Assembly: GCF_900104725.1 (NCBI RefSeq)
Contig: NZ_LT629758.1
Location: 7,526,001 to 7,590,000 of the forward strand
From: Actinoplanes derwentensis
GTDB lineage: Bacteria; Actinomycetota; Actinomycetes; Mycobacteriales; Micromonosporaceae
DNA length: 64,000 nt
Direction: 5' to 3'
Below, piece by piece: positions 7,187 to 50,036 of the stretch. Numbering within the stretch: position 1 is the stretch's first letter; the number at the start of each line of letters is the position of its first letter. The translations under genes were made by a program, and so were the position numbers. A model generated the notes under the pieces. That model was given only the letters and a program-made list of their open reading frames with translations. It searched no databases and was not told where the DNA came from.

Positions 7187-8255
7187 CGCTCGCAGGCGTC
7201 CCCACCCGGTTCTGTCAGAACGATTCTCCTGGGATTTCAGATCCCCGATCGTCTGCTGCTTCGGCAGTTTCAGATGCCTCTTTTGGAGTTAAAACGGCGT
7301 TCTGATGGACAACGCGAAGTTTTACCGCTTCTAGCGGTTCGTCGGTTTCCTGATTTGGTGGCGCTGTCTTTTGACAACTCTCCTGCGGATCGCTCGATCG
7401 TCAAGATTCCCATGATGAGACTTCCTCATTTTGTAGCCGTCGTTCCAATCTTGTTGCCGCCGTTGGCTGGCGCCCTTCTTACGCGTTCGCCCCGCCCCGA
7501 CTCGGGCAAGTGGACTTATCGTCACCGGAAGACTGAAAGTCAACAGCTGCCACGACAAGACCAGCGAGCAAGATCCTGGCACGGGGTTGGGTTGCATCCA
7601 ACTCTTGGAGTGAACCTGCTAGGTCGACCTCAACGTAGCCACTTGCGCGGCTCCGTTTGTCGGGCTCGCTCGCTCATCTGTGGGCATTTGAATCTGGCTG
7701 TCAGTTCTCCGGACATCCCGAAGTAGAGAGCCATGTAAATCAGCCCTCGGGCCTTGACGGTCTTGCTCGACGTTCCCGATCTCGATCGCTACTGCTGGTA
7801 CTTCCCACCTCTTCCGCCTCGAGTTACCAATCTCGGCTCAACGTGCCCGGTTGGCCGGCCCGTGCCGTTCCAAGTCACGAACTGATGTTGCACCTCAGCC
7901 TTCTCGGCATCAGCGTGGATGGAGTGTCCGTTTCCGGGTGCACCTCCATCGTCAGCGCTCCCCTTGACACTGCCCGCCAGCCCTTGCCCGGTGCTTGCCT
8001 GTCCTCTTCAGATTTTTGAGTGAACGGGATCGGGAGCAAGGCGCAGCCACCTCGCCCTGTGCGGATGCGGTTCAATGAACGCGCGAACGCTGCAGTCTTG
8101 GAGCAGAACCGGATTGCCTGCTGCCAACCCTGGATCACGAGCTCCCGCCCAACGGCCTCGTGCCCAGGCTGTGCGCAAGCTGCTGAACAAGCACACCCAC
8201 GGCTCGATCCAACTGCATACACGCGGATCGAACTCACGGCACCCCACAATCTCGT

Positions 8256-8512
8256 CGCGGCTCGCGGCTCGCGGCTCGCGGCTCGCGGCTCGCGGCTCGC
8301 GGCTCGCGGCTCGCGGCTCGCGGCTCGCGGCTCGCGGCTCGCGGCTCGCGGCTCGCGGCTCGCGGCTCGCGGCTCGCGGCTCGCGGCTCGCGGCTCGCGG
8401 CTCGCGGCTCGCGGCTCGCGGCTCGCGGCTCGCGGCTCGCGGCTCGCGGCTCGCGGCTCGCGGCTCGCGGCTCGCGGCTCGCGGCTCGCGGCTCGCGGCT
8501 CGCGGCTCGCGG
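8256..8512. repeat. Heptamer tandem array (GGCTCGC)n, about 36 copies
   Basis: An uninterrupted, apparently perfect array of a 7-bp unit (CGGCTCG in register) over 257 bp. Because 7 is not a multiple of 3, every frame reads the same heptapeptide cycle, so the long open frames across it are not evidence of a gene. It ends 69 bp before the parS site at 8582. Confidence 0.97.
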
Positions 8513-8803: not shown

Positions 8804-8852
8804 CGTCGCCCGTCGCCCGTCGCCCGTCGCCCGTCGCCCGTCGCCCGTCGCC
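8804..8852. repeat. Heptamer tandem array (CGTCGCC)7
   Basis: Seven perfect copies of CGTCGCC, starting 4 bp after parS site 4. Confidence 0.96.
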
Positions 8853-9457
8853 CGCCGGCGTGGATTTCTCCCCCATGTGCGGCATACCAAAGATCCCCTC
8901 GGTGCCTACTCGAAGATCATTGTCGTGGGCAACCCAAAGACGAGTCCTCCGCCGTCTGCAGAATCGGGGACGGAAGCGGGCTAACCTGCGACTGACCGCG
9001 ATCTTCCAGTAGGTCCACCAATGCAGCCCAAGGCCCGCAGGTTCCGGAATGATGCCGAGACCCATGCCGGTGAGTCTTGAATGACCATCCGTTGCCCGGA
9101 TGGTTCAGCTCCGGCTGTTGGTGCCTAATGTCCGGACCTCGGCCCTGTTGGCTGGTCTGATCCCATTAACTCGATCTCGCCTGAGTCGACTGGCCTACCT
9201 CCGGCGCGCGCCCTTCCTGGCCGTTCACTCGCACTTTCAGCCGAGCTTCAGAGGTGGTTTTCAAGATCGAAGTCCAACCTCTCCGGAGAACCACCAGCGA
9301 TCTGCAGACGAACGACCCGTCTCAAGTCGTGAGCCAACGCGGTGTTGACGGAAATGACCGCGGGGGCTTGGCTCCGCTGTCATCGATCAAGTGGCCTACA
9401 AGCCATAGGCGCCCGCGCTTCAGTTGTCGCCGCCAAACGTCTATACGCCTTCCGCTT

Positions 9458-9483: not shown

Positions 9484-9518
9484 GGTGCCCGGTGCCCGGT
9501 GCCCGGTGCCCGGTGCCC
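9484..9518. repeat. Heptamer tandem array (GGTGCCC)5
   Basis: Five perfect copies of GGTGCCC lying between parS sites 5 and 6. Confidence 0.95.
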
Positions 9519-9580: not shown

Positions 9581-10313
9581 AAACCTGGCCGTAGCCGAGG
9601 CTTCAGATGTCGTCTCCTCCGCCCGGAGCCTGGACTGGAGCAGTCAAGCGAGCCCGAGCCGTGAAGACCTCAGATCCGGGTAATGAGGACGTGGCAAGGT
9701 CCGCGTCATTCCGGGCTCAAAAGTTTGGATCCTGTCTGGGAGGGGCGACTTGGGCGGCCGGATCCAATGGGAGTGAGCCCGGCGCTGATCGGGGACTTCC
9801 TCGAGGGGACGACGGCTATCGGCCTGCCGGAAGCTAGTGAGGTCACCGTGCTGTGAAGGGGTTGCCCGAAAGGCGGCGACAATCCGGGACACTGGCCAGC
9901 CAGCCGCGGCAGCAAGGACGAGGGCGCTTTGGTGGTGTGGGTGCCGGATCCAGGCTGATCTTGCATAGCTGTTACCACCCGACCAACGCGGGCTGATCGG
10001 GCTATTGATGTGGCGGTGTCGCGCTATTCCAAAGCCTGCCAGTTCAGGAACTGCAAGGGCCTGTCTGGAGCACTGCAGCGCCTGGAGCCTGATGATCGAC
10101 CGGCCGTTGGGGTGACCGGAGATCGGCAGCGGCAGTTAGCGGAACCCTGAAGGAATCCCTGTGGCAGCAGGCATGCCGTTTGCGTCGCAAAAGAGTGGCC
10201 CAGGTATCGGGGCTGAGAGCCTTTGCCTGGTGCTAGCCGGGCCACTGAGCTTGGGTCGTTTTGCCGGTCTGTAGAGAGAAGACCGTGCCCGGCACGCTTT
10301 GGGCAAAGAATCT

Positions 10314-10417
10314 GGTGCCGGGGTGCCGGGGTGCCGGGGTGCCGGGGTGCCGGGGTGCCGGGGTGCCGGGGTGCCGGGGTGCCGGGGTGCCGGGGTGCCG
10401 GGGTGCCGGGGTGCCGG
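10314..10417. repeat. Octamer tandem array (GGTGCCGG)13
   Basis: Thirteen perfect copies of an 8-bp unit over 104 bp. It ends 32 bp before the near-parS at 10450. The unit resembles the GGTGCCC heptamer at 9484 with one added base. Confidence 0.96.
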
Positions 10418-10449
10418 CCGTTCAGGTTTTGTGGGTCGGGGCGGTCGTG

Positions 10450-10463
10450 GATTCACGTGAAAC
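10450..10463. promoter_or_regulatory. Near-parS site (one mismatch)
   Basis: GATTCACGTGAAAC differs from parS only at position 2. It lies 32 bp after the octamer array, keeping the pairing of array and parS seen elsewhere in this region. Confidence 0.7.
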
Positions 10464-11747
10464 ATTGGTCAGTTGGCGTGGGCGGAGAAGGAACGGGTGC
10501 CTGCTCCTCTCGCCGAGAGACTTGATGGTGGTTGATCTTTCCTGCTTTGACCCTTTGCAAACTCGGACCTAGCCGAGCGCTATAGAACTTTGCGTGCCTG
10601 GATCTGAAGGGCTGACCAAGACGGGCAGCGAGAATGCGGTGGCGGTGGGACTTCTGAGATGGGCACGTGTGGGCGTGGCCATAGGCGTTGGGTAGTGGTG
10701 TGGGCGGGGCCTCGCCTAGCGGCGAAGTGGGTTCGCCTTGCACCGGGACGGGTTTCGGGTGAAGCGCATCTGCGGGGATCTGGCGGAAAACTGCTTCGTA
10801 GGCCGCTGTTGTTGGCTGCCGAGATCGGAGCGGAAAGGCGATTGATTGCCGTTGGCCGTCGTTCTGAGGATGCCTGTTGAACTTCCGCTGAGGCCGTGAT
10901 CCCGGGCGATTCGCCGCTTGCCGTGGTTCGTCTGTGAGGACCAAGACGGCTGAAGTTAGGACTGGGCGCTCCGAGACTGGTGGTGAGACCGAGGAGCGAG
11001 GCGCTTGTAGCCCGGGTTGCGGAGGGCGGCTTACGTCTTGGTGCGCCGAGCAACTCACGGCTTTGGGTGCCGCGGAGCCTGTGTTCCGGAGTGACGGAGG
11101 ACTTGCGGTTCGGGGGCTGAGGGATGCCCGGAGCCAGCTGAGGGTCTGGATGCTGGCGGGCGGTGTATGTGGGCCGACTCGGGTGCCAGGTGGTTGGGTC
11201 TCGAGGTTGCTTCGGGCCCGAATCGTCGGACGTGGTGATGCGGCTTATGAATGCTCGTCGGTTGTCGAGATTGTGGCGAGGAGGAGAGCGGCATTTGGAT
11301 GCGTGGGACTCGGTGGGGGTGAAGCGAGCCGTAGGTGTGGCGAGACTTCGGCGGATTAGAGACGGTCGGGCTGAGGGACTACTGCACTTGAGAACGGACG
11401 AGTTGGGGGTGGCTGGACCGAAAGTCAGCCGCGTTGTAAGGCGGTAGCCGAGGCCCACCGTGTCGGTCGAGCCGGCTACCGACACAAGCCGGTCGTGCCC
11501 GACGGCTGGGATCGGCGGTCGGGCTGGGATTGGCGGTCGGTCGGGCAGGGGCGGCTCGGATCGGCGGTCGGCCCGGGCGGTTAGGGCTGATGGTCTGGAC
11601 CGGGCGGTTAGGGCTGACGGGCTGACGGGCTGACCCTGCGATCGGGGTCGGCGTCGGGGTCAGTGGTCTGTCTCGGTGGGTGTTCGGGATTGGTGGGCTG
11701 GACCGACAGTCGGGGCGGTCGGTGAGTGGCTGGAGTTAGGGGTGACT

Positions 11748-11769
11748 GGGTGGGTGGGTGGAGTCGGGG
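11748..11769 (+). other. Potential G-quadruplex motif
   Basis: Four G-runs (GGG, GGG, GGG, GGGG) separated by loops of 1, 1 and 7 bases within the G-rich skewed stretch. It fits the standard G3+N1-7 pattern and sits just before the DnaA-box island. Confidence 0.6.
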
Positions 11770-11957
11770 CTTGATGGACAGCGGTTGGGGGGTGATGGAC
11801 GTTTGTGGATAGCGGCGGGCTTGTTTTGGGGGATCCGCCGACGGGGGTGCGGTGGGACGTGAATGTGAGAGTGGTCGTTCGGGTGTGGTTGGAGACATGC
11901 GTGATGGCCACTATCCACAACCTGTGTGTGGCGGCTGTTGATGGTGGGTCTTGCGTC

Positions 11958-11971
11958 GTTTCACGTGAAAC
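11958..11971. promoter_or_regulatory. parS site 7
   Basis: Perfect GTTTCACGTGAAAC, embedded in a 24-bp perfect palindrome (11953-11976). Confidence 0.95.
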
Positions 11972-12035
11972 GACGCCGATGTTGTGGGCTTCGTCCACTG
12001 CTCTATCCACAGGGTGTGCAAGCGTTCTACGTCGA

Positions 12036-12049: not shown

Positions 12050-12195
12050 ACGGGAGCCTGTGGATAACTCCTGTGGATAACTTTTGGGTTGGGGTGGGCG
12101 AGGTGGGATCTTCATGGCTGTCAACGTGAGGTGGTACCTCCGTCGTGCGAAATTGATCCGGGACAGGCTGTCGTGGGCTGGGCTAAGGTCACGTC

Positions 12196-41856: not shown

Positions 41857-42306
41857 ATGAAGATCATCCTTACTCAGGAAGTTTCCGGCCTCGGCACCCC
41901 CGGCGACATCGTCGAGGTGAAGAACGGTTACGGCCGTAACTACCTTCTCCCCCAGGGGTTCGCGATTCTGTGGACCAAGGGCGCGGAGAAGCAGGTCGTC
42001 GTGATCAAGCGGGCCCGCGAGGCTCGTGAGATCCGTGACCTGGGCCAGGCCAACGAGGTCAAGGGACAGCTGTCCGGCCTCAAGGTCACGCTGAAGGCGC
42101 GCTCCGGCACCGGTGGCCGCCTGTTCGGCTCGATCACCCCGGCCGAGATCGTCGACGCGGTCAAGGTCGCGGGCGGTCCGGCTCTCGACCGCCGTCGTCT
42201 CGAGCTCCCTGGTCACATCAAGACCACGGGTTCGTACAACGTGCAGGTCCGGCTCCACCCCGAGGTGACCGCGACGTTCCCCGTGAACGTGGTGGCTGCC
42301 AAGTAG
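41857..42306 (+). CDS. rplI: 50S ribosomal protein L9
   Basis: 149 residues: [36 protein letters not shown], a helical linker, and the C-terminal domain [16 protein letters not shown] through [13 protein letters not shown]. Both RNA-binding domains are complete. Last gene of the S6-SSB-S18-L9 operon, 14 bp after rpsR. Confidence 0.96.
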
Positions 42307-42323
42307 TCTCCGACTACGCGCAC

Positions 42324-42358
42324 AACGGCGCGCTGGGCCTCTGGCCTGGCGCGCCGTT
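42324..42358. terminator. Hairpin after rplI
   Basis: A 10-bp stem AACGGCGCGC with a 15-base loop and complement at 42349-42358. It serves the converging rplI and giant repeat gene. Weak T content. Confidence 0.6.
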
Positions 42359-42453
42359 CGTGTTCCCACGGCCTCGTTGCCTCCGGCCTCGCTGCTTCAC
42401 GAGCGGCCGCCCGGGCGTCGGGCTCACGAGCGGCCGTCGGGGCGCCGGCCGCG

Positions 42454-45400
42454 CTAGCTGAGGCTGTTGCCGCTGATGGCGGAGCTGAGCACGGTGGCCA
42501 GGCCGCCACCCACGACCGCGGCGGCCAGGCCGACACTCGCCGACTTCCAGGCCGTCGTGATCGAGCGCAGGCCGTAGGCGAGCATCATGCTCACGACCAG
42601 GGCGATACCGAACCCGGGAGCGGCGTCGGTGAGCGTGTTCAGCGCGTTGGTGCGCTGGCCGGAGTCGAGCAGCAGAATGCCGACGCCGAAGAGCACGACC
42701 GGGATGCCGTACCAGACAGCGGTGTAACCGACCGCGGCCAGCGGGCTGCCGGTCTCTTCCTCTTCCTCGTCGTCATCCGGATCGAGCAGGTCGCCCGGCG
42801 CCGTGCTGGTCGTGAAGTAGTCGTCACTGACCGGCCGGCGCTCGTACGAACCGGTGCCCTGGAACGCGCCGGTGGAACGCCGCGGCGGCCAGGAGGTGTC
42901 CTCCTCGACAGCAAGAGCCGTCCCGCCCCCGGAGGGCAGGGCATCCGCCGCGCCGGCGCCGGGCGCCAGGGAGATCACCGAAGTGGCACTCAGGGCCAGA
43001 TTCGACGTTCCGTCGACCGAGGCTGAGCCACTTGGCCGAAAGGGAGGAAAGTCCGACGTGCTGTAACGGCGGGACTCGCCCTCGGTGGGTTCTCCAGACA
43101 ACTGTCGACGCCAGTCGGTCTCACCGTCCTGCCCGGCGCCCGCGCTGCGATAGTCGGCACCGCGCCGGTCGGCGCGTTCAGCGGCGAGCCAGTCCGCCAG
43201 AGGCGGGCGGCCACCGAATCCACCACCAGCAGGCGGCGGGTCGTCACGATCGTCGTAGCCGCGCCGTGCGGGCGGCTGCTCACTGAGCGGATCCGGCCAG
43301 CGTGCGGTCAGCTCGTCAGCCGCCGGGCCGTAAGCGGGTTTCTGCTGCTCGGTCCAGCTAGGTGCGGCACTTCCAGCCGGCAGTTCCCGAGCCCCGTACG
43401 CGGGACGGCCCGGCTCGGCCTGCTCCGGCCGACGGGATCCGCCACCGCCCGGCGCGTCGTAGCCGGGCGACTGGGACGGGATCCGGGGCCCGCCGTACGA
43501 CGGCCCCTGCTGCTGTTCCTGGTCGCGCCACGCCGGGCCGCTGACCGGCCGGGCCGGCTGATTCCAGGAGGGCTCGCCACCGGGCCGCTGCGCAGGCGGC
43601 CGACGGTCCGGTTCGGCCCGCGACGGGTCCGGTCGCCGCTCCTGGTCCGACCACGAGGAATCAGTGCCAGGAGCGCCGTAGGCGGCTCGCTGCGCGCTTT
43701 GCTGCCCCCGCTCCTGATCCGCCCATGCCGGGCTGCTGACGGGCCGCTGAGGGCGCTCTTGGTCGTCCCATGAGGGGCCGCCGGATCGCTGCTGCCGGTC
43801 CTGGCGTTCCTGGTCGGCCCACGAGCTGCCACCGGATCGGTCCGGCCGTTCCTGGTCCGCCCAGGAAGGCCCGCCGGATCGGTCCTGCCGGTCCGGGCGT
43901 TCCTGGTCGGCCCACGAAGGCGCGTTGCCGGGGCGCTGCTGCCGTTCCTGGTCGGCCCATGACGGGGCCGCGGACGACGCGGGAGCCACCGGAGACGGGT
44001 TGCTGTCGCCGTACGCCGACGGTCCTGCCGGTAGCTCTCGCTGCGGACCGCCGAAAGCGGGCCGCTGAGGCTGCGCGGACGGTCCGGCCGGAAGTTCTCG
44101 CTGCGGACCGCCGAAAGCGGGCCGCTGAGGCTGTGCCGGCGGTCCGGCCGGAAGTTCCCGGGCACTACCGAACCCGCTGCGCCGCTGCTGCGGAGGCGGG
44201 TAGGACTGCTCGTAACCCGACGGCTCCTGCTGCCACCGGGGGTCGTCAGCGGGCGACTCGTCCTGGTAGCCGGAACGGCGCGGATCGGGGTCCTGCCACT
44301 GCGGCGGCCGGGGACCGGGACGCCCGCCATCGGGCGACGGGTACTCCTCGGGAGCGCCACCGCGACGACGGCCTGACCGGGGCTCGGGTTCGGACCGCCA
44401 GGACTCGGCGCCCATCGGCTCATCGAAACGCTGCGGCCCCGGACCGGCGTCACCGGCACGCCGACGGCCGGCGGGATCCTCGCCGCGCCAGCCGGTCGGT
44501 TCCTCGCCACGGCGGCGACGGCCATCGTCGGGCGGGCCGGGAAGTGCGCCGGGGCCGGGCATGGCGCTCCGGGGCCGGTTGCCGGGCATGTCGCCGGACG
44601 GCGCGTTGTTCGGAACGGCGCTGGTCGGCCAGCCTGGACCACCATCGGCCCGGGCATCGGGCATCGGGCCGCCGGGTACACCGCCGGACGGCTCGCCCCG
44701 GCGGGCGCGTCGGCCGGTCGGCTCCTCCTCGGGCTCCGGGGCGGGCTTGACGGCATCGCGGCGAGCCGCCTCGGCACGCCACGCCAGCACTCGGGGGTCG
44801 TCCTCGGCGCGGCTCCACTGGCCGGTGTCCGGGTCCCGGGTCCAGTTGCTGGTGTCCTGATCGCCGTCCCATGAGGCGGTGTCCTCACGCCAGTTGGTCG
44901 GGTTGGCGTTGTACCGCGGGCGGCTCTGTCCCGGACCACGTTTCGCACCGGCCTCCCGGCGCCCGGTGTCCTCAGGACGCCCCAGGTCGGTGCGGGAGCG
45001 GTCGGGCCGCCCTAGATCAGTCCGGGACTGGTCGATTCGGGACTGGTCGGGGCGCGACAGGTCACCGCGTGACAAATCCGCACGTGACAGGTCAGCACGT
45101 GACAGCTCAGCACGTGACAGGTCCGCGCGAGATTGGTCCGCGCGAGATTGGTCCGCGCGGGAGAGGTCCGCGCGGGAGAGGTCCGCGCGTGACAAATCGG
45201 TGCGGGACAGGTCCGCGCGGGATTGGTCGGCGCGGGATGGGTCTGTGCGGGAGAGGTCGGCGCGGGCGGGCTCGGGGCGGGTCTCCTCGGCGCGGCGGCG
45301 GTCGCGGCGTGACGGCGTGCCGGACCGGGTGCCCCAGCTCGGCGCTGCCGGGCCGTCCCCGGGCCCGGAGAAGGCCGTGATGTTGCCGGTGTCGGTGTGC

Positions 45401-46863
45401 CCGGCCCACCCGCCGGTCGTTTCGGACCCGCTGGTCCAGCCGGTGCCCCCGGACGGTGCGGTGCCACTCTCGGCGGCACGCCGGCGGCCGGCCCGGGTGG
45501 GCCGCTCGCTGTAGTCGGCCTCGCGGCGCCAGGCGGCCCGGTCGTCCTCCCGGACCAGGTGCCGGGCGTCGTCGGCGGCCGAACGCTGCCAGCCGGGCGC
45601 GTCGGTGCGCTCCCACCGGGTGATGCCACCGGTGTTCTCACCGGGCGGCGTGCGGTCGGCACGATCCGACCGGGAGGTCCCGGAGACCGGGGCGGTGGAC
45701 CAGGAGCCACTGTCCTCGTCCCGGCGCCGGGATTGTCCCGAACCGGACGGCTGCTGCCAGGACGGAGTCTGCTGCGGTTGCTGCCAGGACGGTGCCGGGG
45801 TGGAGGGTTCCTGCCACGAGGGGGTCCGGCCGGACGGCTGCTGCCACGACGGCGTCTGCGCGGACGGCTGCTGCCACGACGAACTGCCCGACGACCAGGT
45901 CTGCTCGACCGGGGTGGTCGCGGACGGCCCGTCGGACCGCCGCCGCCAGGACGTCGAGTTGTCCGGATCGCTGCGCTGCCAGGACGCCGAATTGTCCGGG
46001 TCATTGCGCTGCCACGACCCTGAGTTGTCCGGGTCGTAGCGCTGCCGGGGCGGTGTCTCGGGCTCGGACTGCCGCCAGGACGGTGCCGGTTCCGGTGCCG
46101 ACTGCCGCCACGACGGAGTCGGGTCGGGTGATGCCGGCGCTGGTGACTGCTGCCAGGACGGTGCCGGATCCGGTGCCGACTGTCGCCACGACGGCTGGTC
46201 GGTGGCGGACTGTCGCCACGACGGTGTCTGCTCGGCCGCCGACTGCCGCCCGGATGTCGTCTGGTCCGCCGCCGACTGCCGCCAGGACGGGGTCTGGTCG
46301 GCGGGTGCCTGTCGCCAGGACGGGATCTCGGGCTCGGGCTCGGCCCCCGGGGTCGGCCACGCCGTCCCGGTGATCGCCGGCTGGTCCCGGCTGCTCAGGT
46401 CTCGGCTGCCGGGGTCCCGGCCGTTCGGTTCGTCCTCGTCGTCGCCCTGCCAGGACTCGGTGGTGGAACGCCACACGTGCGAGCCGGTAGAGGAGCGCCA
46501 CTCGGTGGTCTGCCGCCAGCGAGCCCCGGTGGCGCGCCACTCGGCGGTCTGGGTGCGCCAGCCGGCGCCGTCGGCCGGGAAGGTGGGCCGGCCGGTCGTG
46601 CTGACCTCGGCGGACCACCGGTTCGCCGGCTCGATGGCCTGGCCGCCGCCGTTGTACGGCTCGACCTCGGCCTGCTGGGCCCAGTCGTCGGCCCGGCGCT
46701 GCCAAGTGAGTGCTTCGTCGCTCGGCGCCATGCTTCCGGTGTCGGTGAGTGACGACCAACGAGGCTCTGGATCTTGAGGCTCCGGGTCACGGGTGGGCCA
46801 AGACCCCGCAGCGCGCCTACTGCGCGACATGCGGGTGCTGTAGTCCCACTCCCGTTGGTCCAC
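42454..46863 (-). CDS. Giant repeat-rich membrane protein (Trp-, Arg-, Gln-rich), unknown function
   Basis: 1,469 residues from GTG 46863; an ATG at 46830 is an alternative (neither has a clear ribosome-binding site). The first 1,300 or so residues are low complexity with regularly spaced Trp: TPSWRQSAADQ- and TPSWQQPSG-type units (about 45720-46330), about 19 tandem xDxSR pentapeptides dominated by ADLSR (44975-45275), RELPAGPPAQPQRPAFGGPQ-type units (44030-44170) and PSWADQERxxR units (43600-43990). The C-terminus has three membrane helices (VWYGIPVVLFGVGILLLDSG, GFGIALVVSMMLAYGL, VGLAAAVVGGGLATVLSSA). No signal peptide, so the long part is cytoplasmic. It lies beside dnaB and the ssb operon. 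I do not recognise a function. Confidence 0.8.
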   Translation of the reverse strand: MDQREWDYSTRMSRSRRAAGSWPTRDPEPQDPEPRWSSLTDTGSMAPSDEALTWQRRADDWAQQAEVEPYNGGGQAIEPANRWSAEVSTTGRPTFPADGAGWRTQTAEWRATGARWRQTTEWRSSTGSHVWRSTTESWQGDDEDEPNGRDPGSRDLSSRDQPAITGTAWPTPGAEPEPEIPSWRQAPADQTPSWRQSAADQTTSGRQSAAEQTPSWRQSATDQPSWRQSAPDPAPSWQQSPAPASPDPTPSWRQSAPEPAPSWRQSEPETPPRQRYDPDNSGSWQRNDPDNSASWQRSDPDNSTSWRRRSDGPSATTPVEQTWSSGSSSWQQPSAQTPSWQQPSGRTPSWQEPSTPAPSWQQPQQTPSWQQPSGSGQSRRRDEDSGSWSTAPVSGTSRSDRADRTPPGENTGGITRWERTDAPGWQRSAADDARHLVREDDRAAWRREADYSERPTRAGRRRAAESGTAPSGGTGWTSGSETTGGWAGHTDTGNITAFSGPGDGPAAPSWGTRSGTPSRRDRRRAEETRPEPARADLSRTDPSRADQSRADLSRTDLSRADLSRADLSRADQSRADQSRADLSRAELSRADLSRADLSRGDLSRPDQSRIDQSRTDLGRPDRSRTDLGRPEDTGRREAGAKRGPGQSRPRYNANPTNWREDTASWDGDQDTSNWTRDPDTGQWSRAEDDPRVLAWRAEAARRDAVKPAPEPEEEPTGRRARRGEPSGGVPGGPMPDARADGGPGWPTSAVPNNAPSGDMPGNRPRSAMPGPGALPGPPDDGRRRRGEEPTGWRGEDPAGRRRAGDAGPGPQRFDEPMGAESWRSEPEPRSGRRRGGAPEEYPSPDGGRPGPRPPQWQDPDPRRSGYQDESPADDPRWQQEPSGYEQSYPPPQQRRSGFGSARELPAGPPAQPQRPAFGGPQRELPAGPSAQPQRPAFGGPQRELPAGPSAYGDSNPSPVAPASSAAPSWADQERQQRPGNAPSWADQERPDRQDRSGGPSWADQERPDRSGGSSWADQERQDRQQRSGGPSWDDQERPQRPVSSPAWADQERGQQSAQRAAYGAPGTDSSWSDQERRPDPSRAEPDRRPPAQRPGGEPSWNQPARPVSGPAWRDQEQQQGPSYGGPRIPSQSPGYDAPGGGGSRRPEQAEPGRPAYGARELPAGSAAPSWTEQQKPAYGPAADELTARWPDPLSEQPPARRGYDDRDDPPPAGGGFGGRPPLADWLAAERADRRGADYRSAGAGQDGETDWRRQLSGEPTEGESRRYSTSDFPPFRPSGSASVDGTSNLALSATSVISLAPGAGAADALPSGGGTALAVEEDTSWPPRRSTGAFQGTGSYERRPVSDDYFTTSTAPGDLLDPDDDEEEEETGSPLAAVGYTAVWYGIPVVLFGVGILLLDSGQRTNALNTLTDAAPGFGIALVVSMMLAYGLRSITTAWKSASVGLAAAVVGGGLATVLSSAISGNSLS

Positions 46864-47253
46864 GTCAAAAGGGTGACGTGCGCGAGGCAGAACCGCAACG
46901 CCTCAGCGCGACTGCTTGCTCACTGGAGCCAGTATTTCAGCAGATCCGGAACCTTTTCTGCCCTCCGCAGGTGTGCACAACGAAACACCTGGTCGAGTTC
47001 GTTTTTGCCAAAAGTTATCCACACCGTATTCACAGGGCTACCCACAGGAGCTGCCGGAGTTGTCCACAGGTTGTCCAGAGGCTCGTCCACCGCGGCAGTT
47101 GGGCCGGAGGCAGCGGGATTCGTACAGTGGTCCAGCCTCACATGCGGACTTGATCGGATCGAAGCGCTGAATCCTGCGACGAACCCGTCGAATGGGTTGT
47201 ACCGAGGCGGTTCGATCGAGCACGCAGTGTGGCCGAGTGGAGGGGGAGTTCGG
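46864..47253. other. Intergenic region upstream of dnaB with DnaA-box cluster
   Basis: About 390 bp between the divergent giant-protein gene and dnaB. It holds several DnaA-like boxes at 47015-47090 and the AGGGGGAG ribosome-binding site of dnaB at about 47241-47248. No other gene supported. Confidence 0.6.
47015..47090. promoter_or_regulatory. DnaA-box cluster upstream of dnaB
   Basis: TTATCCACA (47015-47023, exact), TTGTCCACA (47060-47068, the form preferred in Streptomyces), and weaker relatives TATTCACA (47027), CTACCCACA (47038-47046), TTGTCCAGA (47071-47079) and CTCGTCCAC (47082-47090), all on one strand. Confidence 0.65.
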
Positions 47254-49992
47254 GTGTCGATCACCGACGACGCGAGACCTGAGTCACGGCCGCCAGCCGC
47301 ATCCGGGGGCGGGGGCGGCTCCTTCAACGGGGGCGGTGGCAAGGGCAAAGGTCCGCAGGACGGTGGCGGGGGCGGTGGTGGTGGCGGGTTCGACAAGGCG
47401 CCACCGCAGGATGTCGCGGCCGAGCAGGGTGTGCTCGGCGGCATGCTCCTCTCCAAGGACGCCATCGCCGACGTCGTCGAGATCCTCAAGGTCGCCGACT
47501 TCTACCGGCCGGTCCACGCGACGATCTACGACGTCGTCCTCGAGCTGTACGGTCGTGGTGAGCCGGCCGACGCCTTGACCGTGGCCGCGGCGCTCGCCGA
47601 TTCCGGTGAGCTGGGGCGCATCGGCGGCGTGCCCTACCTGCACACGCTGATCGAGAGCGTGCCGACCGCAGCGAACGCGTCGTACTACGCCCGGATCGTC
47701 TCCGAACGTGCCATTCTGCGCCGCCTGGTCGAGGCCGGGACCAAAATCGTGCAACTCGGTTACGGTACGGGTGGCAACGGCGGCCGCGACGTTGACGACA
47801 TCGTCGACCTCGCCCAGCAGGCCATCTACGACGTCACTGAGAAACGTGTCAGCGAGGACTTCGCAGCCCTAGGTGACATGCTCCAGCCGACCCTCGACGA
47901 GATCGAGGCGGTGGGCGCTTCCGGTGGCATGATGACCGGTGTGCCGACCGGGTTCCAGGACCTGGACCGGCTGCTGAACGGGTTGCACGCCGGCCAGCTG
48001 ATCATCGTGGCCGGCCGCCCGGGTCTCGGTAAGTCGACCGCGAGTATGGACTTCGCCCGTAACGCGGCGATCCAGCACGGTCACGCCAGTGCCATCTTCT
48101 CGCTCGAAATGAGCAAGATCGAGATGGTGATGCGGTTGCTCTCCGCGGAGGCGCGGGTTCCGCTGCACACGCTGCGATCGGGTCAGCTCTCCGACGACGA
48201 CTGGACGAAACTGGCCCGGCGGATGGGCGAGATCAGTCAGGCGCCGATCTTCGTCGATGACACACCCAACATGAACCTGATGGAGATCCGGGCCAAGGCG
48301 CGACGTCTCAAACAGCGTCACAACCTACGGCTGCTGGTGATCGACTATCTCCAGCTGATGTCCTCACCGAAGAAGACCGAGAGCCGTCAGCAGGAGGTCT
48401 CGGAACTCTCCCGTGGTCTGAAACTGCTGGCCAAGGAGATCGAATGCCCGGTGATCGCGGTGAGCCAGCTGAACCGTGGCCCCGAGCAGCGCACCGACAA
48501 GCGCCCCCAGCTGTCCGATCTGCGCGAATCGGGCTGTCTGACCGCGGCGACCCGGGTCATGCGTGCCGACGACAACAGCGAGGTCACCCTTGGGGAGTTG
48601 CTCGCCTCGGAGAGCCGTGACATTCCAGTCTGGGCACTCAATGATCGACTTCAATATACGCCTCGGACGATGACGCACGTCTTCCCCAGCGGCTGCAAGC
48701 AGGTTTACCTGCTGACTCTCGCTTCGGGTAAGCGGATCGAGGCTACCGCCAACCATCCGTTCCTGACCCTGCACGGTTGGAAGCCTCTCGGTGAACTGGT
48801 CGTCGGAGATCGGCTCGCCGCGCCACGACACGTGCCACCGCCCCTGTTGCTGAGGCCTTGGGTGGAGCCCGAGTTGGTGCTGCTCGCTCACATGCTGGGC
48901 GACGGCTCCTTCGTTCGCCGGCAGCCCATCCGCTACGCCAGCGTGGACGAGCTCAACCTGACCGCGGTGGCCGAAGCGGCGAAACACTTCGGTGTCACCG
49001 CAGTGCGCGACGAGTACGCGGCTACGCGAGTCACTACTTTGCGTCTTCCCGCGCCGTACCGGTTGGCGCGCGGCAGCCGCAATCCGATCGCCGAGTGGCT
49101 GGACGACCTAGGGTTGTTCGGCTTGCGGTCGCACGAGAAGTACTTGCCTGAGCGGCTCTTCTCCATACCTAAGGAGCAGGTCAGGCTCTTTCTCCAGCAC
49201 CTTTGGGCGACCGATGGCTCAGTCACAGTCAACAAGGCCGGCACGGGAGGCCGCATCTACTTCGGTTCGACCAGTCGGCCGATGCTGGAAGGCATCTCCC
49301 GGCTGCTGCTCCGGTTCGGTATCACTGGTCGGCTGCGTGTTGTGCGGGTGGAACGTCATCGGCCGCAGTTCACTCTCGATGTCTCGGGGCGCGACGATCA
49401 GTTGCGTTTCCTTCGGGAGATCGGGGTCTTCGGCGGTCGGTCGGCTCAGTGCGAAAGCTTGCTGGCGGTGCTGGAGAACTCGCGGAGTAACACGAACGTG
49501 GACACCGTGCCCCGGGAGATCTGGGACGAGGTCCGCACGATCCTCTTGGACAAGGGGATGACGCACCGTGAGTTTGCTGCGGCGATTGACGTCCAGTTCT
49601 GTGGGAGCACTCTGTGGAAACACGCGCCAAGTAGGCAGCGACTGGCCCGGATCGCGGATGTTCTGGAGAGTGCTGAACTCGAGCTGCATGCCACGAACGA
49701 TGTCTTCTGGGACGAGATCGCCTCGGTGGAGAGCCTTGGTGAGCAGGAGGTCTACGACGCCACGGTGATGGGAACGCACAACTTCATCGCGAACGGCATC
49801 GCCACCCACAACTCGATTGAGCAGGATGCTGACGTGGTGATCCTGCTGCACCGCGATGACTACTACGACAAGGAATCGCCTCGGGCAGGTGAGGCCGACT
49901 TCATCGTTGCCAAGCACCGTAACGGGCCGACTGACACGGTTACGGTGGCCGCGCAGCTGCACCTGTCGCGCTTCGTCGACATGGCTATCTGA
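47254..49992 (+). CDS. dnaB: Replicative DNA helicase DnaB with intein
   Basis: 912 residues from GTG 47254 (AGGGGGAG upstream). An N-terminal Gly-rich leader (about 45 residues) precedes the DnaB N-domain (AAEQGVLGGMLLSKDAIADV), then RecA-type Walker A (IIVAGRPGLGKSTASMDFA), IFSLEMSK, LLVIDYLQLM and VIAVSQLNRGPEQ. After LSDLRESG an intein begins at Cys428 and ends at Asn853; the C-extein resumes SIEQDADVVILLHRDDYYD. Without the intein the protein is 486 residues, the normal helicase length plus leader. Unwinds DNA at the replication fork. Mycobacterial DnaB also carries inteins. Confidence 0.96.
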   Translation: MSITDDARPESRPPAASGGGGGSFNGGGGKGKGPQDGGGGGGGGGFDKAPPQDVAAEQGVLGGMLLSKDAIADVVEILKVADFYRPVHATIYDVVLELYGRGEPADALTVAAALADSGELGRIGGVPYLHTLIESVPTAANASYYARIVSERAILRRLVEAGTKIVQLGYGTGGNGGRDVDDIVDLAQQAIYDVTEKRVSEDFAALGDMLQPTLDEIEAVGASGGMMTGVPTGFQDLDRLLNGLHAGQLIIVAGRPGLGKSTASMDFARNAAIQHGHASAIFSLEMSKIEMVMRLLSAEARVPLHTLRSGQLSDDDWTKLARRMGEISQAPIFVDDTPNMNLMEIRAKARRLKQRHNLRLLVIDYLQLMSSPKKTESRQQEVSELSRGLKLLAKEIECPVIAVSQLNRGPEQRTDKRPQLSDLRESGCLTAATRVMRADDNSEVTLGELLASESRDIPVWALNDRLQYTPRTMTHVFPSGCKQVYLLTLASGKRIEATANHPFLTLHGWKPLGELVVGDRLAAPRHVPPPLLLRPWVEPELVLLAHMLGDGSFVRRQPIRYASVDELNLTAVAEAAKHFGVTAVRDEYAATRVTTLRLPAPYRLARGSRNPIAEWLDDLGLFGLRSHEKYLPERLFSIPKEQVRLFLQHLWATDGSVTVNKAGTGGRIYFGSTSRPMLEGISRLLLRFGITGRLRVVRVERHRPQFTLDVSGRDDQLRFLREIGVFGGRSAQCESLLAVLENSRSNTNVDTVPREIWDEVRTILLDKGMTHREFAAAIDVQFCGSTLWKHAPSRQRLARIADVLESAELELHATNDVFWDEIASVESLGEQEVYDATVMGTHNFIANGIATHNSIEQDADVVILLHRDDYYDKESPRAGEADFIVAKHRNGPTDTVTVAAQLHLSRFVDMAI
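48535..49812 (+). mobile_element. Intein in DnaB with LAGLIDADG homing endonuclease
   Basis: 426 residues. Splicing blocks: A CLTAATRVMRADD (nucleophile Cys), B KRIEATANHPFLTLHGW (T-x-x-H), F VYDATVMGTHNFIANGIATHN, with final His-Asn and the extein Ser as the downstream nucleophile. Two endonuclease motifs, LLAHMLGDGSF and LWATDGSV, keep the Asp residues, so endonuclease activity is possible. The insertion follows LRESG before SIEQDAD, a conserved helicase motif and a known intein site in DnaB proteins. Confidence 0.93.
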
Positions 49993-50036
49993 GATCGGTA
50001 TGGCTATCTGAGATCGGTATGTCGATCTGAGACCGG
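49981..50036. repeat. Triple 19-bp direct repeat over the dnaB stop
   Basis: ATGGCTATCTGAGATCGGT at 49981-49999 and 50000-50018 is identical, with a third, degenerate copy at 50019-50036. The first copy covers the last dnaB codons and the stop. Confidence 0.9.

Follow-up and report, generated by a model that had tools for sequence, protein, structure and literature searches.

A tryptophan-rich, probably membrane-anchored protein family of the Micromonosporaceae, encoded between rplI and dnaB, as a possible multivalent docking scaffold

On sequence comparison, a 1,469-residue protein encoded in a 64,000-nucleotide stretch of the Actinoplanes derwentensis genome (the whole stretch analysed, here called the window) belongs to an undescribed protein family that is defined by a C-terminal anchor of about 100 residues and occurs in the Micromonosporaceae, soil actinobacteria. 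The initial annotation of this DNA had the coordinates, strand, length and GTG start of the gene right, and its description of the product as Trp-rich holds (Table 1). We give about an even chance to the reading that the protein is a Micromonosporaceae-specific, inner-membrane docking scaffold with a multivalent cytoplasmic arm, possibly one that condenses; we favour it because a membrane-anchored, cytoplasmic and disordered arm appears to combine selected stickers with freely varying spacers. The constant C-terminal anchor would hold the arm at the inner membrane, and the motifs of the arm would serve as numerous weak docking sites (stickers), recruiting one or several soluble partners, or further copies of the protein, to the membrane. 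The length of the arm would set reach and valency, and genera that lack it would keep the function of the anchor only.

Table 1. Features of the gene and its neighbours (window coordinates)
Feature	Position	Strand	Remarks
Whole gene	42454..46863	minus	1,469 aa, GTG start; open frame, purifying selection
N-terminal Trp/Arg block, aa 1-140	46444..46863	minus	95% aa identity to L049
Arm 1, SW[RQ]Q repeats, aa 141-420	45604..46443	minus	at least 2 copies in 20/26 proteins
Conserved block 2, aa 421-505, DDARHLVREDDRAAWRR ... GGWAGHTDTG	45349..45603	minus	genus comparison, tblastn placement
19 xDxSR-type pentads, aa 535-629	44977..45261	minus	source of Pfam pentapeptide match
Conserved block 3, aa 655-715, triple DTxxW, DTASWDGDQDTSNWTRDPDTGQWSR	44719..44901	minus	T and W both conserved, each in 88% or more of orthologues
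Pro/Gly/Gln arm, fast-evolving, repeats species-specific, aa 716-1220	43204..44718	minus	dN/dS 0.27 against L049; repeat counts
Juxtamembrane block and acidic stretch, aa 1221-1370	42754..43203	minus	DWRRQL, GESRRYSTSDF, YERRPV, DLLDPDDDEEEEE
Three-helix membrane anchor (predicted), aa 1371-1469	42457..42753	minus	family-defining part
dnaB	47254..49992	plus	start inferred at GTG 47254; divergent neighbour
rplI	41857..42306	plus	convergent neighbour
Two perfect DnaA boxes	47015-47023, 47060-47068	plus	divergent region between gene and dnaB
Conserved leader	46864..46923	minus	TTGC-N17-G[TG]CAC[GC]CT-N6-GTG, directly before start codon

The protein is rich in P, R, S, A, G, D and Q and contains 0.3% Lys; its Trp content of 4.2% compares with 1.5% in 293 ORFs sampled from the same genome, and is reached by 5 of the 262 sampled ORFs of 150 aa or more. 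Since GC by codon position is 0.72/0.68/0.83, the usual frame test for high-GC DNA is weak and relatives were needed. None of 1,000 first-order simulations of the sequence kept the frame open (mean 15.5 stops), so that its length is not due to chance. The gene was therefore compared with 25 relatives, namely 22 of 66 same-genus genomes and three named records; for the same-genus genomes beyond these 22, the evidence is open-frame length. Homologues with disrupted frames had been named at the outset as the sign of a frame that is not maintained. When five blocks of the protein, from the N-terminus to the anchor, were placed by tblastn, all detected blocks lay in a single frame in 23 of the 25 relatives. 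The frame of L064 shifts at a run of 100 N, an assembly gap. L061 (genome G017) has its N-terminal block in a frame different from that of the other blocks, with no such gap, and the change falls between about 3173 and 3899. The latter is an apparent frameshift, either real or a sequencing error in repeats, and the only result of the kind named at the outset; this single case does not outweigh the codon evidence for a real gene. Three of the 67 genus genomes have short frames: two run off contig ends (G043 and G009) and the third, by its coordinates, lies beside one (G031).

The window protein and its relatives made up a set of 26 that served the block, frame-stop, Trp-conservation, T-x-x-W and repeat counts; L061 and L064 entered it without the N-terminal block, which lies in another frame, and L064 was left out of the conservation statistics. 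That the gene's own frame lacks stops in 26/26 sequences follows in part from the method, which traced each frame from the anchor back to its first stop; the other five frames carry 223, 373, 165, 660 and 319 stops. Codons were aligned through their amino acids, a procedure biased towards low values; dN/dS against the closest relative, L049, was 0.27 overall, 0.12-0.40 by segment and 0.16-0.37 in the three repeat-rich arms; it was 0.30-0.43 against four further relatives and 0.19-0.37 in five other pairs. Arm differences from L049 at codon positions 1, 2 and 3 number 129, 102 and 304 over 897 codons. That the frame is an artefact of GC-rich DNA and encodes no protein might be argued from a second frame on the same strand that stays open for 567 codons, from L061, and from a homologue of A. 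missouriensis (P0129) annotated only as a 124 aa C-terminal stub. Against dN/dS values well below 1, the third-position bias, the single frame of most relatives, the stops in every other frame and a conserved start and leader, we regard this as very improbable indeed; on the codon evidence the frame is a genuine, selected protein-coding gene.

The initial annotation had suggested a search for homologues of the C-terminal helices with variable arms; such homologues exist and define the family. With a single sequence as query, the anchor was found in 85 of 150 relatives: 67/67 of the same genus (own genome included), 17/23 from elsewhere in the family and 1/60 from outside it, the last at E=2e-4. 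A profile search found it in 133 of 150 Micromonosporaceae genomes; among 394 genomes of the class it gave five matches, three from Micromonosporaceae and two weak ones from outside (E about 1e-4, one with an internal stop). Named matches come from Actinoplanes, Paractinoplanes, Couchioplanes, Krasilnikovia, Micromonospora, Asanoa, Phytohabitans, Catellatospora and Stackebrandtia, and most are called hypothetical. A literature search, with supplements outside its scope, found no paper on this protein, and none for six homologue locus tags. The earlier statement that no family is recognisable is thus correct for the curated libraries, apart from the pentapeptide match described below, and incorrect in that a Micromonosporaceae family exists.

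Members differ mainly in the arm, which ranges from almost nothing in Stackebrandtia to about 1,640 residues, the whole proteins from 122-125 aa in Stackebrandtia up to 1,755 aa. Micromonospora-type proteins measure 409-622 aa (best 120 of 195 matches) and the Actinoplanes proteins used here 1,029-1,755 aa; searches for the Stackebrandtia and Micromonospora-type proteins scored only the candidates sharing most words, and L039 was left out of the anchor references. Among the best 120 of 122 proteins in the other homologue list, a precomputed Pfam domain is recorded for three, with no domain shared among them (P0001, P0020, P0089). An apparently long frame in an otherwise short genus (G634) proved to be antisense of dnaB, the protein itself having about 132 aa. 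Judged from the sequences, the arm is dispensable within the family, being absent in Stackebrandtia and in G634. Recognition of the family would give a name to genes now called hypothetical and sometimes truncated or misnamed. The A. missouriensis stub (P0129, AMIS_80870) is, with P0146 and P0067, a likely public annotation error; the three include one homologue named ATP synthase subunit c and one named polycystic kidney disease protein 1-like. A separate anchor copy with a Pro-rich tail (L080, genome G073) has neither dnaB nor rplI nearby.

The anchor comprises three predicted C-terminal helices; loop 2 contains an R and a W that are invariant, and the third helix is of the GxAAAVxGxGxxT type. 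AlphaFold predicted the three helices, as the initial annotation had proposed, at low confidence (mean pLDDT 65.2 and pTM 0.32 with 47 sequences; 59.6 and 0.32 with 16), and a profile search for solved relatives gave none that was convincing (best E=0.51). In 25 anchors spanning the family, loop 2 is net positive in 25/25, and loop 1 is net +1 or less in 25/25 and has two Cys in 15/25. The Cys pair looks disulfide-like, which would put loop 1 outside; Cys is absent from 25 of the 26 genus proteins. The stretch just before helix 1 is acidic, not basic, and alone does not favour an inside N-terminus. By eye, no N-terminal signal sequence is evident. Because of the loop charges, the Cys pair and the lack of an evident signal sequence, the arm and loop 2 are placed inside and loop 1 outside. 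Sequence and model thus strongly suggest three membrane helices and a cytoplasmic, disordered arm, in support of the original description of a membrane protein with a long cytoplasmic low-complexity region. Repeat-rich, fast-changing sequence is common on surfaces and, together with the acidic flank, might instead suggest an envelope protein whose Trp/Arg repeats contact wall glycans or other cells from outside. We consider such an arrangement improbable, as the same topology evidence places the arm in the cytoplasm.

Within the genus, four well-kept blocks stand out from the remainder outside the anchor (aa 1-140, 421-505, 655-715 and parts of 1221-1370), and the sequence between conserved blocks expands as repeats. 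The first begins MDQREWDY and contains WRTxTAEWRATGxRWRQTTEWRSxTGSxVWRSTTESW; 12 Trp of this block persist in 92% or more of orthologues. Five repeat types were tested in the 26 proteins, and SW[RQ]Q was the only widespread one. The xDLSR-type, SW[AS]DQER and DPDNSxSWQR repeats are each present in at least two copies in one protein, and RELPAGP attains that number in 3/26. The several repeat families noted previously therefore survive in part: one is widespread, the others are species-specific or nearly so, and by these counts the repeats singled out appear to be mostly the least conserved part of the protein. Nor are the Trp residues evenly placed over the whole arm, as had been stated, the median gap being 15 with a coefficient of variation of about 1.

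The curated libraries gave no family match for the window protein besides pentapeptide repeats (PF00805), which match aa 534-569 with E=4e-12 and 45.8 bits against a curated cut-off of 20.2. That score is the likeness to PF00805 proteins. The window pentads differ from them in that the central position is often Q, P or R and in being embedded in low-complexity sequence. Runs of at least four pentads occur in two of the 26 proteins, the window protein (19) and L049 (8), and in none of the other 24. When seven homologues were searched against Pfam, 0/7 matched any family. Assignment as a pentapeptide-repeat protein was therefore rejected.

Conservation in the arm is concentrated on tryptophan. 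Identity to the window residue averaged 0.56 in arm Trp columns compared with 0.28 for all arm residues, and 0 of 10,000 random draws was as high; only His, with two arm residues, exceeds Trp, which is the best-kept common residue. Thirty of the 62 Trp are kept in at least 85% of 24 orthologues. In 118 Micromonospora-type proteins among the matches listed (two of the 120 were left out as under 450 aa), arm Trp averaged 0.91 over 18 positions, with Tyr at 0.82, His at 0.80, Arg at 0.77 and the remaining common residues at 0.48-0.69.

A second regularity is Thr three residues before Trp. Thr occupies this position at 28.7% of Trp in the 26 genus proteins, against a background of 6.6% (4.4-fold), and at 23.3% against 5.9% (4.0-fold) in 24 other-genus proteins, for which a rough pattern placed the start, with the result that some (e.g. 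L043-L045, L067) include non-coding residues from upstream. Across 293 ORFs sampled from 400 kb of the A. derwentensis genome, Thr frequency stays level around Trp (0.062 at -3, 0.061 background). The N-terminal block of the window protein has no match in the other-genus loci, despite the T-x-x-W enrichment there. The motif is commonly T-G-x-W-x-R, and at least one T..W.R is present in 118/119 Actinoplanes-type and 115/118 Micromonospora-type proteins among the matches listed, and in 20/24 other-genus proteins (absent from L068, L075, L077 and L079). The sequences behind these counts are related and some of the matches lie in tandem repeats, so they do not represent independent events; several T..W in the window protein are TPSW repeats whose Thr is poorly kept. 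As a DNA pattern, DTGxWxR was uninformative genome-wide, with seven places (one in this gene) against eight for a reversed control.

Sequence comparison has shown, within these limits, selection focused on Trp, Arg and the recurrent T-x-x-W while spacers drift, expand and shrink as repeats. At the sequence level aromatic and Arg stickers are conserved within variable spacers, so that the sticker-and-spacer composition originally proposed is borne out, for Trp and less so for Arg. It might nevertheless be that function resides in the anchor, as a small membrane protein of three helices, with the arm a tolerated tail or an entropic brush whose exact sequence hardly counts: all members were identified through the anchor, some members have no arm, and length varies widely within one genus. 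The low dN/dS of the arm segments against L049, the fixed Trp positions and the recurrent motif argue against it, and we regard it as unlikely though deserving real weight. The family provides a natural series, with one anchor, a fixed locus and arms from near zero to about 1,640 residues, in which selection visibly separates stickers (Trp, Arg, T-x-x-W) from spacers. What evolution keeps in a bacterial disordered arm, and whether arm length or motif number sets function, thereby become testable.

FHA domains, which bind phosphothreonine, read the residue at +3, and Ser/Thr kinases are numerous in actinobacteria. The position of Thr at -3 to Trp for this reason invites the speculation that it acts as a switch phosphorylated by Ser/Thr kinases of the actinobacterial kind. 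A stronger version, in which the protein forms a clade-specific membrane condensate whose tandem T-x-x-W-x-R motifs in the arm are Thr-phosphorylated and read by phosphothreonine-binding proteins, and whose expression, set by DnaA from the promoter common to it and dnaB, links it to the replication cycle, is a long shot on the present sequence evidence; if true, it would represent a tunable multivalent platform with valency evolving by repeat expansion.

Compared by description, the protein resembles hubs of the PopZ type in being a putative disordered bacterial hub that gathers clients. PopZ is soluble and has a C-terminal oligomerisation domain; the protein described here differs in its three-helix membrane anchor. 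PMC11326607 names PopZ as a condensate example and describes the M. tuberculosis ABC transporter Rv1747, whose cytoplasmic module of two phosphothreonine-binding domains with a disordered linker between them is reported to form phosphorylation-dependent condensates. On that description, Rv1747 sets an actinobacterial precedent for membrane condensates tuned by phosphorylation. Both are actinobacterial membrane proteins with a cytoplasmic disordered region, with clustering at the membrane reported there and only proposed here. The present protein differs in that neither a transporter nor an FHA domain was found in its chain (curated libraries, and seven homologues against Pfam), and in a far longer, Trp-rich arm; the two are likened by description, phosphorylation being known for Rv1747 only.

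The gene lies between rplI and dnaB, on the strand opposite both, in 53/53 loci in which all three were found (56 searched), in some cases with a further 1-2 kb ahead of rplI; both neighbours are missing at L080 and all three genes at L083, from outside the family, and L081 has both neighbours and no anchor match at the threshold used. In the 750 bp upstream of the dnaB anchor point, at least one perfect DnaA box is present in 35 of 55 loci, the window included (20/26 genus, 15/29 other; L080 and L083, where no dnaB was found, were left out), compared with a simulated average of 0.2 loci. These observations would suit a replisome or origin tether, in which the arm binds DnaB, SSB or DnaA and a promoter shared with dnaB couples expression to initiation. 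Synteny alone, however, could explain the position, and the position is shared by L082, a member whose arm is almost absent. Of the boxes at family loci, 41/43 point towards dnaB, and outside the family a perfect box lies upstream of dnaB in 10/28 loci (some cut by contig ends). In PMC7738170, M. tuberculosis DnaA is reported to bind upstream of dnaB, and DnaA binding upstream of Caulobacter dnaB is cited. Because boxes accompany dnaB outside the family, and in view of the M. tuberculosis binding reported there, we assign them to dnaB and treat them as neutral for the present gene; an argument from them for its involvement in replication was rejected. A shared DnaA-responsive promoter for the gene and dnaB is possible. 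The membrane tether near the replication machinery proposed in the initial annotation accordingly draws on gene position, which is conserved and could be plain synteny, and a tether seems to us improbable.

The leader directly before the start codon has fixed spacing in 24/24 usable genus sequences (L061 and L064 left out) and, with the same strict pattern, in 8/22 other-genus loci; L037, L043, L044, L079, L080, L082 and L084, which have no recognisable start, and L081 and L083, which have no anchor frame, were not counted. It may be a promoter, an operator or a leader. An Rfam search of 42000-48000 matched no RNA element up to E=1. Within dnaB, an intein-like insert appears to interrupt the gene at about 48600-49800 (CLTAATRV ... 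VMGTHNFIANGIATHN, seen by eye in the translation), and a 19-base tandem repeat of 2.9 copies occupies 49981-50036, from the end of dnaB. Elsewhere in the window, two tandem copies of a 13-base unit at 12057-12082 each contain a perfect minus-strand DnaA box. Perfect tandem arrays of 7- or 8-base units lie at 8255-8512, 8804-8854, 9484-9518 and 10314-10417 (37, 7, 5 and 13 copies) and adjoin a stretch with a GC skew of 0.31 at 10001-12000.
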